Assembly (NCBI GenBank): GCA_025361425.1
Contig: JANYAH010000336.1
Location: 1 to 45,116 of the forward strand
Source: Candidatus Solibacter sp.
Lineage (GTDB): Bacteria > Acidobacteriota > Terriglobia > Bryobacterales > Bryobacteraceae
DNA: 45,116 bases
Direction: 5' to 3'
The stretch's first letter is position 1. Each line of letters opens with the position of its first letter. Shown one piece after another: positions 29,675 to 32,897 of the stretch. The notes beneath the pieces were generated by a model, which saw only the letters and a list, made by a program, of their open reading frames with translations, was not told the DNA's origin and ran no database searches. A program made the position numbers and the translations under genes.

Positions 29675-31141
29675 ATGACTAGGAGATTGATCCTGCTTGC
29701 GTCGTTGCTCGCCGCTCTCGCGGCGGCCCACCCCATGGGGAATTTCAGCGTGAACCATTACGCGCGCCTGGAGCCGGGTCCGCACGGCGTCGCCATCCAC
29801 TATGTGATGGATTTAGCTGAGATCCCCACCTTCGAAATGTTCCAACAGTGGGGCCCTGATGCCGATCTTCAAAAGAAGGCGCTCGAGCAGGCGCGCCTCT
29901 GGGCGGCCAACCTGGAAATCACGGTCAACGGCCAGCGCGTGCCCGCCCGCCTGCTACGCGCGGAGATCGCGCTCACGGAGGGCGCCGGCAACATGCAGGT
30001 GGCGCGCATCACGGCAGATCTGCGGGTAGACGCCGCCGCCGGCACGTTCACCTACGAAGACCGCAATTACCAGGGCCGGAGCGGCTGGAAAGAGATCGTT
30101 GGTCCGGGCGGCAAGAGTCGCAGCGCAGAGCTGACGTCCTATCCGCTGGACCCCATGATGGCGCCGCCGCAGGAACTGAAGACCGCATTTTCGTGGACCG
30201 CTCCCGCCGCGCCGGCAACCCGGCCGGTGGAGCCCGTCACCCCGCCAGCGCCCGTCTCCGTAACCGCTCAGGCTCCGTCTCCCTCCGCCCCCGCGATTGC
30301 TCCCGCGGCCGCCGCCGCCGGACAGGTGGTGAAGGGCGATTACCTTTCCCGCCTGCTGCATCGCGAGCAGATCGGCTGGCAGTTGACCTTAATCGGCATC
30401 GCCGTGGCCTTCGGGCTGGGCGCCATGCACGCCATGTCGCCCGGCCACGGAAAAACCATCGTGGCGGCCTACCTGGTGGGCTCGCGCGGCACCTTCAAAC
30501 ACGCCATGTTCCTCGGCGCGATGGTCACCTTCACCCACACCGCGAGCGTCTTCCTGCTCGGCTTTGTGACCCTGTTCCTCTCCCAATACGTGCTGCCGGA
30601 GAAGCTGTTCCCCATTTTGGGCACCATCTCCGGCCTGAGCATCGTATGGGTCGGCACCATGCTGTTCTTCCGCCGCCTGCACGCACAGAGGCATCGTCAC
30701 GATCAGCCCGATGAAGATCACGTTCACGGTCACGATCACGGCGACGGGCACACCCACAGCCATAGCCACGGTCAAAGTCACACCCATAGCCACGTGCCGC
30801 AAGGCGAGATCACCATGGGGAGCCTGATTGCGCTCGGCGCAAGCGGCGGCTTGGTGCCCTGTCCTTCCGCGCTGGTAGTGCTCTTGAGCGCCATCTCGCT
30901 CGGCAGGGTCGGGCTCGGAATGCTCCTGCTGGTGGGGTTCAGCGCCGGGTTGGCCGCCGTGCTGATGGGCATGGGCGTACTCGTGCTGTGCGTCGGCAAT
31001 CTCCTGCCCTCAAGCCGCAAGTTCACCGATAGCCGTGCGTTCAGGCTACTGCCGGTGGCCTCGGCCGCGGTAATCGCGTGTGTCGGCTTGGTGATGACCG
31101 GAGTATCGTTGGGGATTATTCGCCTGCTGCCGGTTGGCTGA
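29675..31141 (+). CDS. NicO-family nickel/cobalt transporter with periplasmic N-domain and His-rich loop
   Basis: A 488-residue protein. A signal sequence ends near 'AAAHPMGNFSVNHYARL', followed by a ~200-residue extracytoplasmic domain and a Pro/Ala linker. The membrane part starts at about residue 235 and contains 'GAMHAMSPGHGKTIVAAYLVGSRGT', the NicO/RcnA signature. A loop with alternating His, Asp and Gly (30700-30800, for example 'HGHDHGDGHTHSHSHGQSH') would bind Ni2+, Co2+ or other divalent metal. RcnA-type members export metal. The extra N-domain is typical of larger NicO proteins in several soil phyla. It is divergent from the redoxin gene with a 42-base gap. Confidence 0.87.
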   Translation: MTRRLILLASLLAALAAAHPMGNFSVNHYARLEPGPHGVAIHYVMDLAEIPTFEMFQQWGPDADLQKKALEQARLWAANLEITVNGQRVPARLLRAEIALTEGAGNMQVARITADLRVDAAAGTFTYEDRNYQGRSGWKEIVGPGGKSRSAELTSYPLDPMMAPPQELKTAFSWTAPAAPATRPVEPVTPPAPVSVTAQAPSPSAPAIAPAAAAAGQVVKGDYLSRLLHREQIGWQLTLIGIAVAFGLGAMHAMSPGHGKTIVAAYLVGSRGTFKHAMFLGAMVTFTHTASVFLLGFVTLFLSQYVLPEKLFPILGTISGLSIVWVGTMLFFRRLHAQRHRHDQPDEDHVHGHDHGDGHTHSHSHGQSHTHSHVPQGEITMGSLIALGASGGLVPCPSALVVLLSAISLGRVGLGMLLLVGFSAGLAAVLMGMGVLVLCVGNLLPSSRKFTDSRAFRLLPVASAAVIACVGLVMTGVSLGIIRLLPVG

Positions 31142-31183
31142 GAAGGCTGACACGCGAACTTCGTCATATAATGATGATTCACT

Positions 31184-31285
31184 ATGCGTAAGCGTGTTCT
31201 CGGTCTCGATTGGTGGGCAGTTCTGGCATCGCTGGCTGCCGCGCTTTTGGTCAAAACCGGTTTGCTCAAGAGCATCCCGTGGTAA
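31184..31285 (+). CDS. 33-residue membrane ORF overlapping the YeiH-type transporter start
   Basis: ATG 31184 opens a 33-residue product, MRKRVLGLDWWAVLASLAAA then LLVKTGLLKSIPW: a basic start, a DWWAV motif and one transmembrane-length helix. TATAAT lies at 31167-31172, eleven bases before the ATG, and there is no ribosome site, so translation might begin near the mRNA 5' end. Its stop TAA (31283-31285) overlaps the next gene's GTG by seven bases in another frame. Larger YeiH-family proteins often start with a 'DWWA..' helix, so this may be that helix split off by a frameshift, or a separate small subunit coupled to the transporter. Either reading needs comparison with relatives. Confidence 0.5.
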   Translation: MRKRVLGLDWWAVLASLAAALLVKTGLLKSIPW

Positions 31286-32331
31286 ACGGCTTCCGCCGCT
31301 TCCTCAGCCTGATCCCCGGCATTCTGTTGCTCGCCATTCTCGGTGGCGCGGGCAAGCTCACCGAACAATCCATCGCCCGCTATGCCAAGGCGCATCAACT
31401 CTTTTTGCCCAACATTGAGTACGTGCTCTGGGCCATTGTCTTCGGGTTAATTGTCGCCAACACCACTGGCGTTCCCAAAATCTTTCGCCCCGGCGTGGAC
31501 ACCTACGAATTCTGGCTGAAAGCCGGAATCGTATTGCTCGGTGTGCGCTTCATTTTGGGGGACGTCATGAAGATGGGCGGAATCAGCCTCGCCTGCGTCG
31601 CCGTGGAAATCGTGCTTTCGCTCATTCTCATGACCTATCTGGGGCGCGCGTTCGGCCTATCGCCCAAACTCACCAGCCTTCTCGCCATCGGATCGTCAAT
31701 TTGCGGGGTCTCCGCCATTATCGCGGCCAAGGGAGCCATTGACGCCGACGATGAAGACTCCTCCTACGCCATCGCCGCCATTCTCGCGCTGGGCGCGTTC
31801 AGTCTGTTTGCGTTCCCGGCGATCGGCCATGCCCTCGGCATGAGCGATCAGGCTTTTGGCCTCTGGGCCGGCCTTGCGGTTGACAATACGGCCGAGGCCA
31901 CCGCCGCGGGCGCGCTTTATTCCGACGCCGCCGGAAAATTTGCCGTGCTCGCCAAGACCGCCCGCAACGCCACCATCGGGTTTGTCGTGCTCGGCTACGC
32001 CATCTATTGGGCACGCCAGTCGCAGGCGGCGGTGATCGATAATAAGGCGAGCTTTCTGTGGCAAAAGTTTCCGAAGTTTGTGCTCGGATTTCTTCTGATT
32101 TCCTCGGTTACCACAGCCGGATTTTTCTCCAAGCCTCAAATCACCGACATTGCCAATCTTTCGCGCTGGGCTTTTCTGCTTACGTTTGCCGGTGTCGGGC
32201 TCCGTACGAATTTCCGCGAAATGATGAAGCAGGGAATTCGTCCGTTCCTCGTCGGCGCGATTGGCGAGTTTGCCATTGCCGCCATCACGCTGATAATGGT
32301 GCTGACCGTGGCGCGCTTCTACTTGGTTTGA
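31279..32331 (+). CDS. YeiH-family putative sulfate exporter / transporter (UPF0324)
   Basis: Starting at GTG 31279 this gives 350 residues, almost exactly the length of E. coli YeiH (349). About ten transmembrane helices are visible. 'LWAIVFGLIVANTTG', 'GIVLLGVRFILGDVMKMGG', 'LLAIGSSICGVSAIIAAKGAIDA' and 'GLAVDNTAEATAAGAL' are family hallmarks. Members have been proposed as sulfite/sulfate or sulfonate exporters; the function of this one is not shown. In-frame ATG 31210 falls inside the small ORF and would add a non-hydrophobic 23 residues in a different frame from that ORF, so I prefer the GTG; AAGAG precedes it. Translation is probably coupled to the small ORF that it overlaps. Confidence 0.82.
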   Translation: MVNGFRRFLSLIPGILLLAILGGAGKLTEQSIARYAKAHQLFLPNIEYVLWAIVFGLIVANTTGVPKIFRPGVDTYEFWLKAGIVLLGVRFILGDVMKMGGISLACVAVEIVLSLILMTYLGRAFGLSPKLTSLLAIGSSICGVSAIIAAKGAIDADDEDSSYAIAAILALGAFSLFAFPAIGHALGMSDQAFGLWAGLAVDNTAEATAAGALYSDAAGKFAVLAKTARNATIGFVVLGYAIYWARQSQAAVIDNKASFLWQKFPKFVLGFLLISSVTTAGFFSKPQITDIANLSRWAFLLTFAGVGLRTNFREMMKQGIRPFLVGAIGEFAIAAITLIMVLTVARFYLV

Positions 32332-32370: not shown

Positions 32371-32601
32371 TCAGCCCTTCCGCTTCTTCTTGATCTTGCG
32401 GTAGACGCCGTAGCCCCCCAGGCCAAGCAGGGCGCCGGCCAGCGCGCCAACGCCAATCACCAGGCCAGCGGACAATCCGGTCACTGCCCCTTGAGCGGCG
32501 AGTTCCAGGATGCCCACCGACGCGCCTCCAGCGGTGCCCACGCCAGCACCCACCCCGGCCGCCGCCGTCGCTTTCGCTGTATCTTTTTCGTCTTCCGTCA
32601 T
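32371..32601 (-). CDS. Small glycine/alanine-rich membrane protein
   Basis: From ATG 32599-32601 the product has 76 residues. An acidic N-terminus (MTEDEKDTAKATAAAGVG) is followed by a Gly/Ala-rich stretch and two likely helices, then a strongly basic end (YRKIKKKRKG). GGGGAT lies about nine bases upstream. It looks like a small glycine-zipper inner-membrane protein; I do not recognise a named family. An in-frame start at 32625 would add eight residues. It is convergent with the YeiH-type gene. Confidence 0.6.
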   Translation of the reverse strand: MTEDEKDTAKATAAAGVGAGVGTAGGASVGILELAAQGAVTGLSAGLVIGVGALAGALLGLGGYGVYRKIKKKRKG

Positions 32602-32897
32602 GTCATGATCCCCAACTATTCCCATTGTAGAGGTCGCAGCGGACGGTTACCAGCACGCCGAAGCAGACTCCGCAACGTGTCGCATACTGCCGGTGGCCAG
32701 CGACGGGGTCGAACCGCCGCCACCCCTTTTCGCGCCTCCATAGCTTCCCGGCGCTCGCCTTCCTTCACCCGCATCCTCACCAGAGTGCAATCTTCGACCG
32801 GCTGCACGGGACTCGACAAGACTCCACTGAAGTAGCGGAGCGCCCGTTCGGCTCTGCTATAATGTAAGGGTTCTGCCCGGCAATTCAGGTTTCCCTC
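32602..32897. other. Intergenic region with the yceD-rpmF-plsX promoter
   Basis: These 296 bases separate the small membrane protein from yceD. The only element I can support is the extended -10 promoter at 32855-32863. A tRNA-like T-arm near 32735-32755 on the minus strand has no matching acceptor stem. A minus-strand frame crossing into yceD is a shadow. Confidence 0.45.
32855..32863 (+). promoter_or_regulatory. Extended -10 promoter of yceD-rpmF-plsX
   Basis: TGCTATAAT is a perfect extended -10 element (TGn plus TATAAT). No matching -35 hexamer is seen, which extended -10 promoters tolerate. The predicted start near 32870 gives a leader of about 28 bases before the yceD ATG. Confidence 0.6.

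Follow-up and report, generated by a model that had tools for sequence, protein, structure and literature searches.

A conserved family of one-helix proteins encoded upstream of a clade of PSE (PF03601) transporters, with a predicted role as a dedicated small subunit

A small ORF upstream of a transporter gene of the putative sulfate exporter (PSE) family in Candidatus Solibacter sp. is a real, separate and conserved gene. It represents an unnamed conserved family of one-helix proteins that goes with one particular clade of PSE transporters, and we consider it likely, judging from the sequences, that the protein is a dedicated one-helix subunit that binds or serves the adjacent transporter. 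What appeared to be a frameshift in the analysed stretch of DNA (45,116 nucleotides of contig JANYAH010000336.1; hereafter the window) is a small-protein family without a name, tied to a poorly understood transporter family. The first-pass annotation had described a 33-residue membrane ORF that overlaps the GTG start of the transporter by seven bases in another frame, a description that holds in full (Table 1). Among the explanations that it offered, the sequences speak for a true small subunit, since the separate ORF is conserved, evolves under purifying selection and is linked to a transporter in 25 of 27 places.

Table 1. Features of the window around the small ORF and the PSE transporter gene
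Feature	Coordinates	Strand	Description
NicO-type nickel/cobalt transporter gene	29675..31141	+	Contains a His-rich stretch; located 42 nt before the small ORF
Conserved stretch before the ATG of the small ORF	31155..31183	+	Contains TATAAT at 31167-31172
Small ORF	31184..31285	+	33 aa, one hydrophobic helix; separate homologous ORF in 79/80 related loci
Overlap of small ORF and transporter gene	31279..31285	+	7 nt, -1 frame relation
PF03601 / putative sulfate exporter (PSE) transporter gene	31279..32331	+	350 aa, GTG start
Gene for Gly/Ala-rich probable membrane protein	32371..32625	-	84 aa, convergent with the transporter gene; weak Phage_holin_3_6 match, under cut-off

The product of the small ORF in the window is MRKRVLGLDWWAVLASLAAALLVKTGLLKSIPW, followed by a stop codon, and the motif of the family reads LSLDxWAV...ALLVRxG...(I/V)PW-stop. 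The GTG of the transporter gene sits inside the last codons of the small ORF, CCG TGG TAA. The transporter scores 265.1 bits against PF03601 (gathering cut-off 24.5) and 114 bits against TIGR00698, the model of the YeiH subfamily, which lies under the cut-off of 232.6. In the genome from which the window derives, it is the sole match both to its own protein sequence and to PF03601. With a scripted choice of start codons the 7-nt overlap is present in six of 80 rows, the window included, and is shared with the closest relatives (L002, L003 and L010). By the same start choice, neither of the two genes in the window is preceded by a Shine-Dalgarno-like motif. The overlap suggests possible translational coupling.

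The 29 nt before the ATG are identical to those of the nearest relative (L002) at 27 of 29 positions, compared with 15 of 60 in the next 60 nt upstream, so a conserved control region is plausible. The TATAAT promoter of the first-pass annotation stands in so far as a perfect TATAAT is found within this conserved stretch, and fails to find a partner, since the promoter scan pairs no -35 hexamer with it; the nearest call of the scan is a different pair (9/12). The stretch is a possible promoter with a very short leader. A NicO-like gene, such as the one upstream in the window, was seen near the pair at one of 105 other loci (L009).

Related loci were collected by a transporter scan with one genome per species, and the best 80 of 194 loci form a close set of 68-92% identity. 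In 79 of these 80 a separate ORF of the same family is located upstream of the transporter gene, whereas in the 80th (L037) the contig end leaves 90 nt before the match, within which the tail of an ORF, with IPW-stop at its end, is recognizable. Of the three arrangements that the first-pass annotation had wished to see compared (helix fused, separate or absent), it is thus the separate one that prevails, and the relatives are not all fused. The family HMM was built with 62 of the 79 rows, obtained by pattern search, and the remaining 17 were found by this HMM without contributing to it. The ORF in the window scores 52.8 bits, its own row being among the builders of the HMM; 10.6 bits was the highest value reached in 100 first-order shuffles of the 45-kb window. 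Genomes of isolates show the separate arrangement too, at L069, L072, L075 and L079, where the contigs measure 0.56-1.4 Mb; L069, L072 and L075 are loci of culturable relatives such as Edaphobacter lichenicola and Granulicella.

Conservation spans the whole helix of the small ORF. In the 80 rows (the 79 and the window) D6 and W30 are present in all 80, V10 in 74, A9 in 72, A17 in 71 and W8 in 70, an Arg or Lys occupies position 21 in 73, and a Pro occurs in the C-terminal end in 62. Every one of the 80 rows closes with a TGG (Trp) codon, whereas different stop codons follow it (TAA in 36, TGA in 23 and TAG in 21). The surveys widen the collection to 106 distinct small ORFs, of which 98 have a terminal Trp and eight a terminal Phe; the Phe-ending ORFs make up a diverged subgroup (L086, L090, L136, L209-L211, L219 and L223). 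By the scripted start choice the small proteins have lengths of 30-56 residues, and basic residues flank the helix on both sides, which leaves its orientation uncertain. An ATG start was assigned in 79 of 80 and a Shine-Dalgarno-like motif of at least 4 nt in 69 of 80 small ORFs (64 of 80 for the transporters), numbers that are overstated because the scripted start choice favours ATG and Shine-Dalgarno-like motifs. The spacer between the small ORF and the transporter gene runs from -7 to 201 nt (4-201 nt in 74 of 80). All three relative frames are present (34, 24 and 22 of 80), and further stop codons separate the two ORFs in nine of the 22 in-frame loci.

Nei-Gojobori counts on a 90-nt core showed pN<pS in 3153 of 3160 pairs (which are not independent), with a pooled ratio of 0.51, in the frame of the small ORF. 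The other two frames of the same DNA had pN<pS in 1553 and 11 of the 3160 pairs, with pooled ratios of 1.01 and 1.97. Between the window and L002 there are eight synonymous and four non-synonymous differences. Purifying evolution acts in the frame of the small ORF only, and the contrast between the frames is plain.

A survey of 149 genomes across the phylum yielded nine profile matches in eight genomes, each with a PF03601 gene immediately downstream in the same orientation. Among 151 genomes of the class, a match was found in 25 genomes at 26 places; the window's own family is represented in this survey by 20 genomes listed without a match, and the small-ORF family is hence patchy. Taking the profile-found small ORFs of both surveys together, the window's own included, a transporter gene lies just downstream in 25 of 27 places. 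At the two exceptions (G209 and G240) the small ORF follows a siroheme-synthase gene and the window-type transporter is missing; each of the two genomes has one PF03601 protein, of the classic kind. No transporter remains were detected around the two orphan ORFs, where the search gave chance-level matches only (E 0.32 and 0.69). These loci represent a natural loss of the partner. In the orphan of G240, D6 is changed to Glu and V10 to Ala, while that of G209 keeps both. Near both orphans (G209:C119, loci L126 and L153; G240:C38, loci L135 and L154) the siroheme-synthase gene is accompanied by a convergent malate dehydrogenase gene.

With the transporter of G148 as the query, a search of 396 acidobacterial genomes gave 43 places that pass E 1e-30, 30 of the window clade and 13 of a clade of long-form PSE proteins. 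All 30 window-clade places carry the separate small ORF, and in the long-form clade the corresponding helix is fused in 12 of the 13 and separate in one, that of G148. Upstream of 22 acidobacterial genes of other PF03601 subfamilies (L091, L093 and L100-L119) no small hydrophobic ORF was found; L109 has a 263-residue frame at that position. In another phylum the A1 profile matched in one of 299 genomes, namely the one whose locus had started the search, ten of the ten long forms that pass E 1e-25 have the helix fused, and 30 YeiH-type loci collected there have nothing that resembles the small ORF, with one unlike hydrophobic frame of 59 residues in L168. Several long PSE proteins of another phylum (L232 and L234-L240) have open frames with further hydrophobic segments before the EDWWA helix. 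The transporter clade that carries the small ORF is mostly acidobacterial. Three members are labelled Pseudomonadota (L022, L062 and L078), so transfer is possible. Two others, labelled Betaproteobacteria (L060) and Rhodanobacteraceae (L074), have a transporter or a gene context that looks acidobacterial, and are perhaps misassigned bins.

The topologies published for the family (PMC8396727) are nine transmembrane helices for PSE_1 and eleven for PSE_2, both with the N-terminus inside, the difference being two N-terminal helices. The DWWA-type helix that the first-pass annotation placed in the longer YeiH-family proteins is real: long acidobacterial PSE proteins start with EDWWAVWLG or similar, and all 11 share the E, D, W, G and a later W. 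The order in the long form, as judged from the sequences, is the EDWWAV helix (TM1), a second hydrophobic helix (TM2) and then a helix that aligns with the first one of the window transporter, which starts at the equivalent of the long-form TM3 and is without both N-terminal helices. The transporter of G148 likewise starts without TM2. Joining the two ORFs of the window would thus not give the longer form, as had been supposed, since the small ORF supplies only the first of its two extra helices; a simple fusion would have ten helices, presumably in conflict with the published N-in topology of both forms.

The profile of the small ORF matches an alignment of the long-form TM1 with E 5.6e-6 and a probability of 86%. 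When it is compared with the long forms over their whole length, TM1 scores highest (28.7, with E 8.7e-5 and a probability of 60%) and the next place reaches 14.2; with fewer long forms in the comparison E becomes 3e-4 and the probability 40%, so that the probabilities are moderate overall. The reversed profile scored 11.6, and 30 column shuffles reached at most 19.1. The match spans 25-28 columns, and five of the six best shuffles also landed on the TM1 region, so that part of the TM1 signal is due to composition. Taken together, the likeness between the small ORF and the long-form TM1 is suggestive of common descent, though it is not proof.

In a tree of 101 rows (31 of 104 window-clade rows kept, 73 dropped), the window clade (99/99), the long forms (99/95) and G148 are placed together across a branch (99/97) from the classic YeiH-type transporters, and the long-branch row L151 is on the same side. 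The window transporter groups with the long forms but outside them. G148 is sister to the long forms in this tree, whereas a 53-row tree with more long forms (16 window-clade rows; L141 and L144 dropped) puts G148 and the long forms at a fork, the latter being united in 27% of the bootstraps; it therefore does not follow that the split is ancestral. Under an AU test a joint clade of G148 and the window clade is rejected (p 3.9e-5), and a clade that unites the long forms and excludes G148 is not (p 0.43), with the groups named after the trees had been seen. Both trees carry long-branch warnings, and G148, itself on a long branch, is represented by one draft genome only. Its locus (L120 / L192, G148:C36) has a separate small ORF, 'EDWWAVMVGW...IPW', ahead of a transporter that falls with the long forms. 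On these trees the helix appears detached in two lineages, a reading for which the long branches call for caution. A broader scheme can be offered only tentatively, and we would sooner doubt than endorse it: a third PSE architecture, consisting of a separate one-helix subunit and a 9-helix transporter, would be the older state retained in two lineages, and the long form would have arisen by fusion via a newly gained bridging TM2, needed to preserve the orientation in the membrane.

An AF2 model was built for the read-through chain of the relative L016 (small ORF, spacer and transporter), the input including 12 more paired rows as well as 37 transporter rows; its mean pLDDT is 81.1 and its pTM 0.80. 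In this model the small helix comprises residues 9-25; the blocks 11-20 and 21-30 have means of 92 and 88, values that express local confidence and not docking. The transporter part aligns with NapA (5bz2, Z 16.3, from residue 59) and with CitS (9lsk, Z 13.2, from residue 57), and by this model the transporter matches the CPA/AT-type fold of the NapA/CitS type. Foldseek with the same model gave a best E of 6.1e-3 and none below 0.001, and no PDB entry was matched by sequence at E 0.01 when A3 served as the query.

If the small protein is indeed a dedicated subunit, the ORF would encode a 33-residue single-helix protein that is produced and inserted, in one orientation or the other, in the inner membrane. 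It may be the separate-chain counterpart of the first helix of the long form (EDWWAV...), standing beside a transporter of the 9-helix type ('1 + 9'). The small helix probably packs against the N-terminal scaffold domain of the transporter, presumably binding it there, and is probably needed for the stability, assembly or regulation of the transporter. In the window the two proteins are probably co-translated, with coupling by termination and reinitiation at the 7-nt overlap.

An alternative, which we regard as unlikely, is that the small ORF is a regulatory leader peptide, such that a ribosome on it controls translation of the transporter and the peptide has no structural role. Peptide-controlled leaders are known, and stalling might perhaps occur at the conserved -(I/V)PW-stop end or perhaps on membrane insertion. 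Such a role would agree with the conserved C-terminal end (W in 80/80, P in 62/80) and with the position of the ORF just upstream of, or overlapping, the transporter start. However, the conservation through the whole helix, the spacers of -7 to 201 nt and the Phe end in eight of 106 argue against it, and it leaves unexplained why the long PSE proteins contain a similar helix in fused form, again with a conserved Trp behind it.

It is improbable, too, that the small ORF encodes a general membrane or stress protein like YohP that merely adjoins the transporter gene. Seven of 51 members match the NCBIfam model of YohP weakly (best E 1.3e-4), and two genomes keep the small ORF without the transporter. 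In the five members tested, however, three score 12.7-18.2 bits, against a cut-off of 58, and two have no match; membership of the YohP family was rejected on score. In E. coli, moreover, yohP is about 20 kb away from yeiH, and PSE transporters accompany the small ORF in 25 of 27 places. The orphan of G240 has changed the otherwise near-invariant D6 and V10, although that of G209 keeps both. A Pfam search with the 51 members gave a single match at E 0.052, and no Pfam or NCBIfam model names the small ORF over its curated cut-off, the YohP matches being under the cut-off in those checked.

Programmed frameshifting or stop read-through, yielding a fused protein, is very improbable. The 7-nt overlap with its -1 relation in the window and the closest relatives would allow it, but as a feature of the family it is rejected, given the three relative frames and spacers that reach 201 nt (4 nt or more in 74 of 80). 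Read-through would meet further stops in the in-frame loci counted above, the small ORF in the window contains no X XXY YYZ heptamer, and the fused product would gain one helix where the long forms have two. A sequencing error or a recent mutation that split one gene, the last of the earlier proposals, has only the overlap in its favour and is refuted by the separate ORF in many species and assemblies (79 of 80 related records, isolate genomes among them) and by the Trp-stop end in 80 of 80.

A possible substrate of the transporter is indicated by the gene neighbourhood. A siroheme-synthase (uroporphyrinogen-III methyltransferase) gene is found near 22 of 79 named loci and a siroheme reductase gene near ten of 79, within flanks of at most 1.5 kb; in 57 of the 79 no siroheme-synthase gene is present within the flanks, and the window has neither gene. 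When 26 survey loci are added, some of which are from the same species as named loci and two of which were the source of queries, the numbers become 27 and 13 of 105, respectively. The score of the methyltransferase is above its NCBIfam cut-off. Nitrite/sulfite reductase domains are present in the reductase, but the best equivalog models for the two that were examined (NirA, ferredoxin-nitrite reductase) are under cut-off. The reductase can thus be assigned neither to the nitrite nor to the sulfite type, and an identification as sulfite reductase was dropped, the family search showing nitrite/sulfite reductase only. A 2026 publication (PMC12880088) describes YeiH of Salmonella as needed for sulfite resistance. 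Together with the siroheme genes in the neighbourhood, this makes sulfite the best guess for the small anion that the pair probably moves, a guess that is reasonable but weak.

Several known systems are instructive in comparison. The long form PSE_2 of the PSE family (TC 2.A.98, PF03601) shares the transporter core and an EDWWAV-type N-terminal helix that resembles the small ORF, but it carries this helix within the transporter chain, with another extra helix after it; the window has a gene of its own for such a helix and lacks the other one. A like helix can thus be compared detached, with a 9-TM partner, and fused together with an extra helix, in an 11-TM protein, which makes the gain of N-terminal helices in membrane proteins testable and provides a handle on PSE function. 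YeiH of E. coli and Salmonella (PSE_1, 9 TM, TIGR00698) has, as in the window, the PF03601 core without the N-terminal helices, but differs in that the window transporter is under the TIGR00698 cut-off and its clade is placed with the long forms in the tree. In E. coli K-12 the 98 nt between yeiE and yeiH hold no annotated gene, and in the open-access literature we found no description of a small partner of PSE or YeiH. YohP of E. coli (27 aa) shows a weak local likeness, far below the cut-off of 58. A possible parallel to the small ORF and its transporter is offered by DVU0543/0544 of Desulfovibrio vulgaris, described as a 133-aa protein with one transmembrane helix that adjoins a PSE transporter (PMC10102598).

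Other likenesses are in the way of working. Subunits that occur fused or as separate genes characterize the unrelated family of TRAP transporters. The small and large subunits of these can be separate or fused, and the small one has four helices. KdpF is a very small single-helix partner of a larger membrane complex. AcrZ (PMC7267776), as well as CcmD and CydX (PMC10903887), are described as partners of the single-helix type. In AcrZ, KdpF, CcmD and CydX alike, a tiny membrane protein is dedicated to a larger membrane complex, such as a transporter or an oxidase, which resembles the role predicted for the small ORF; the window-type small helix differs from all four in that a similar helix is fused in related transporters.
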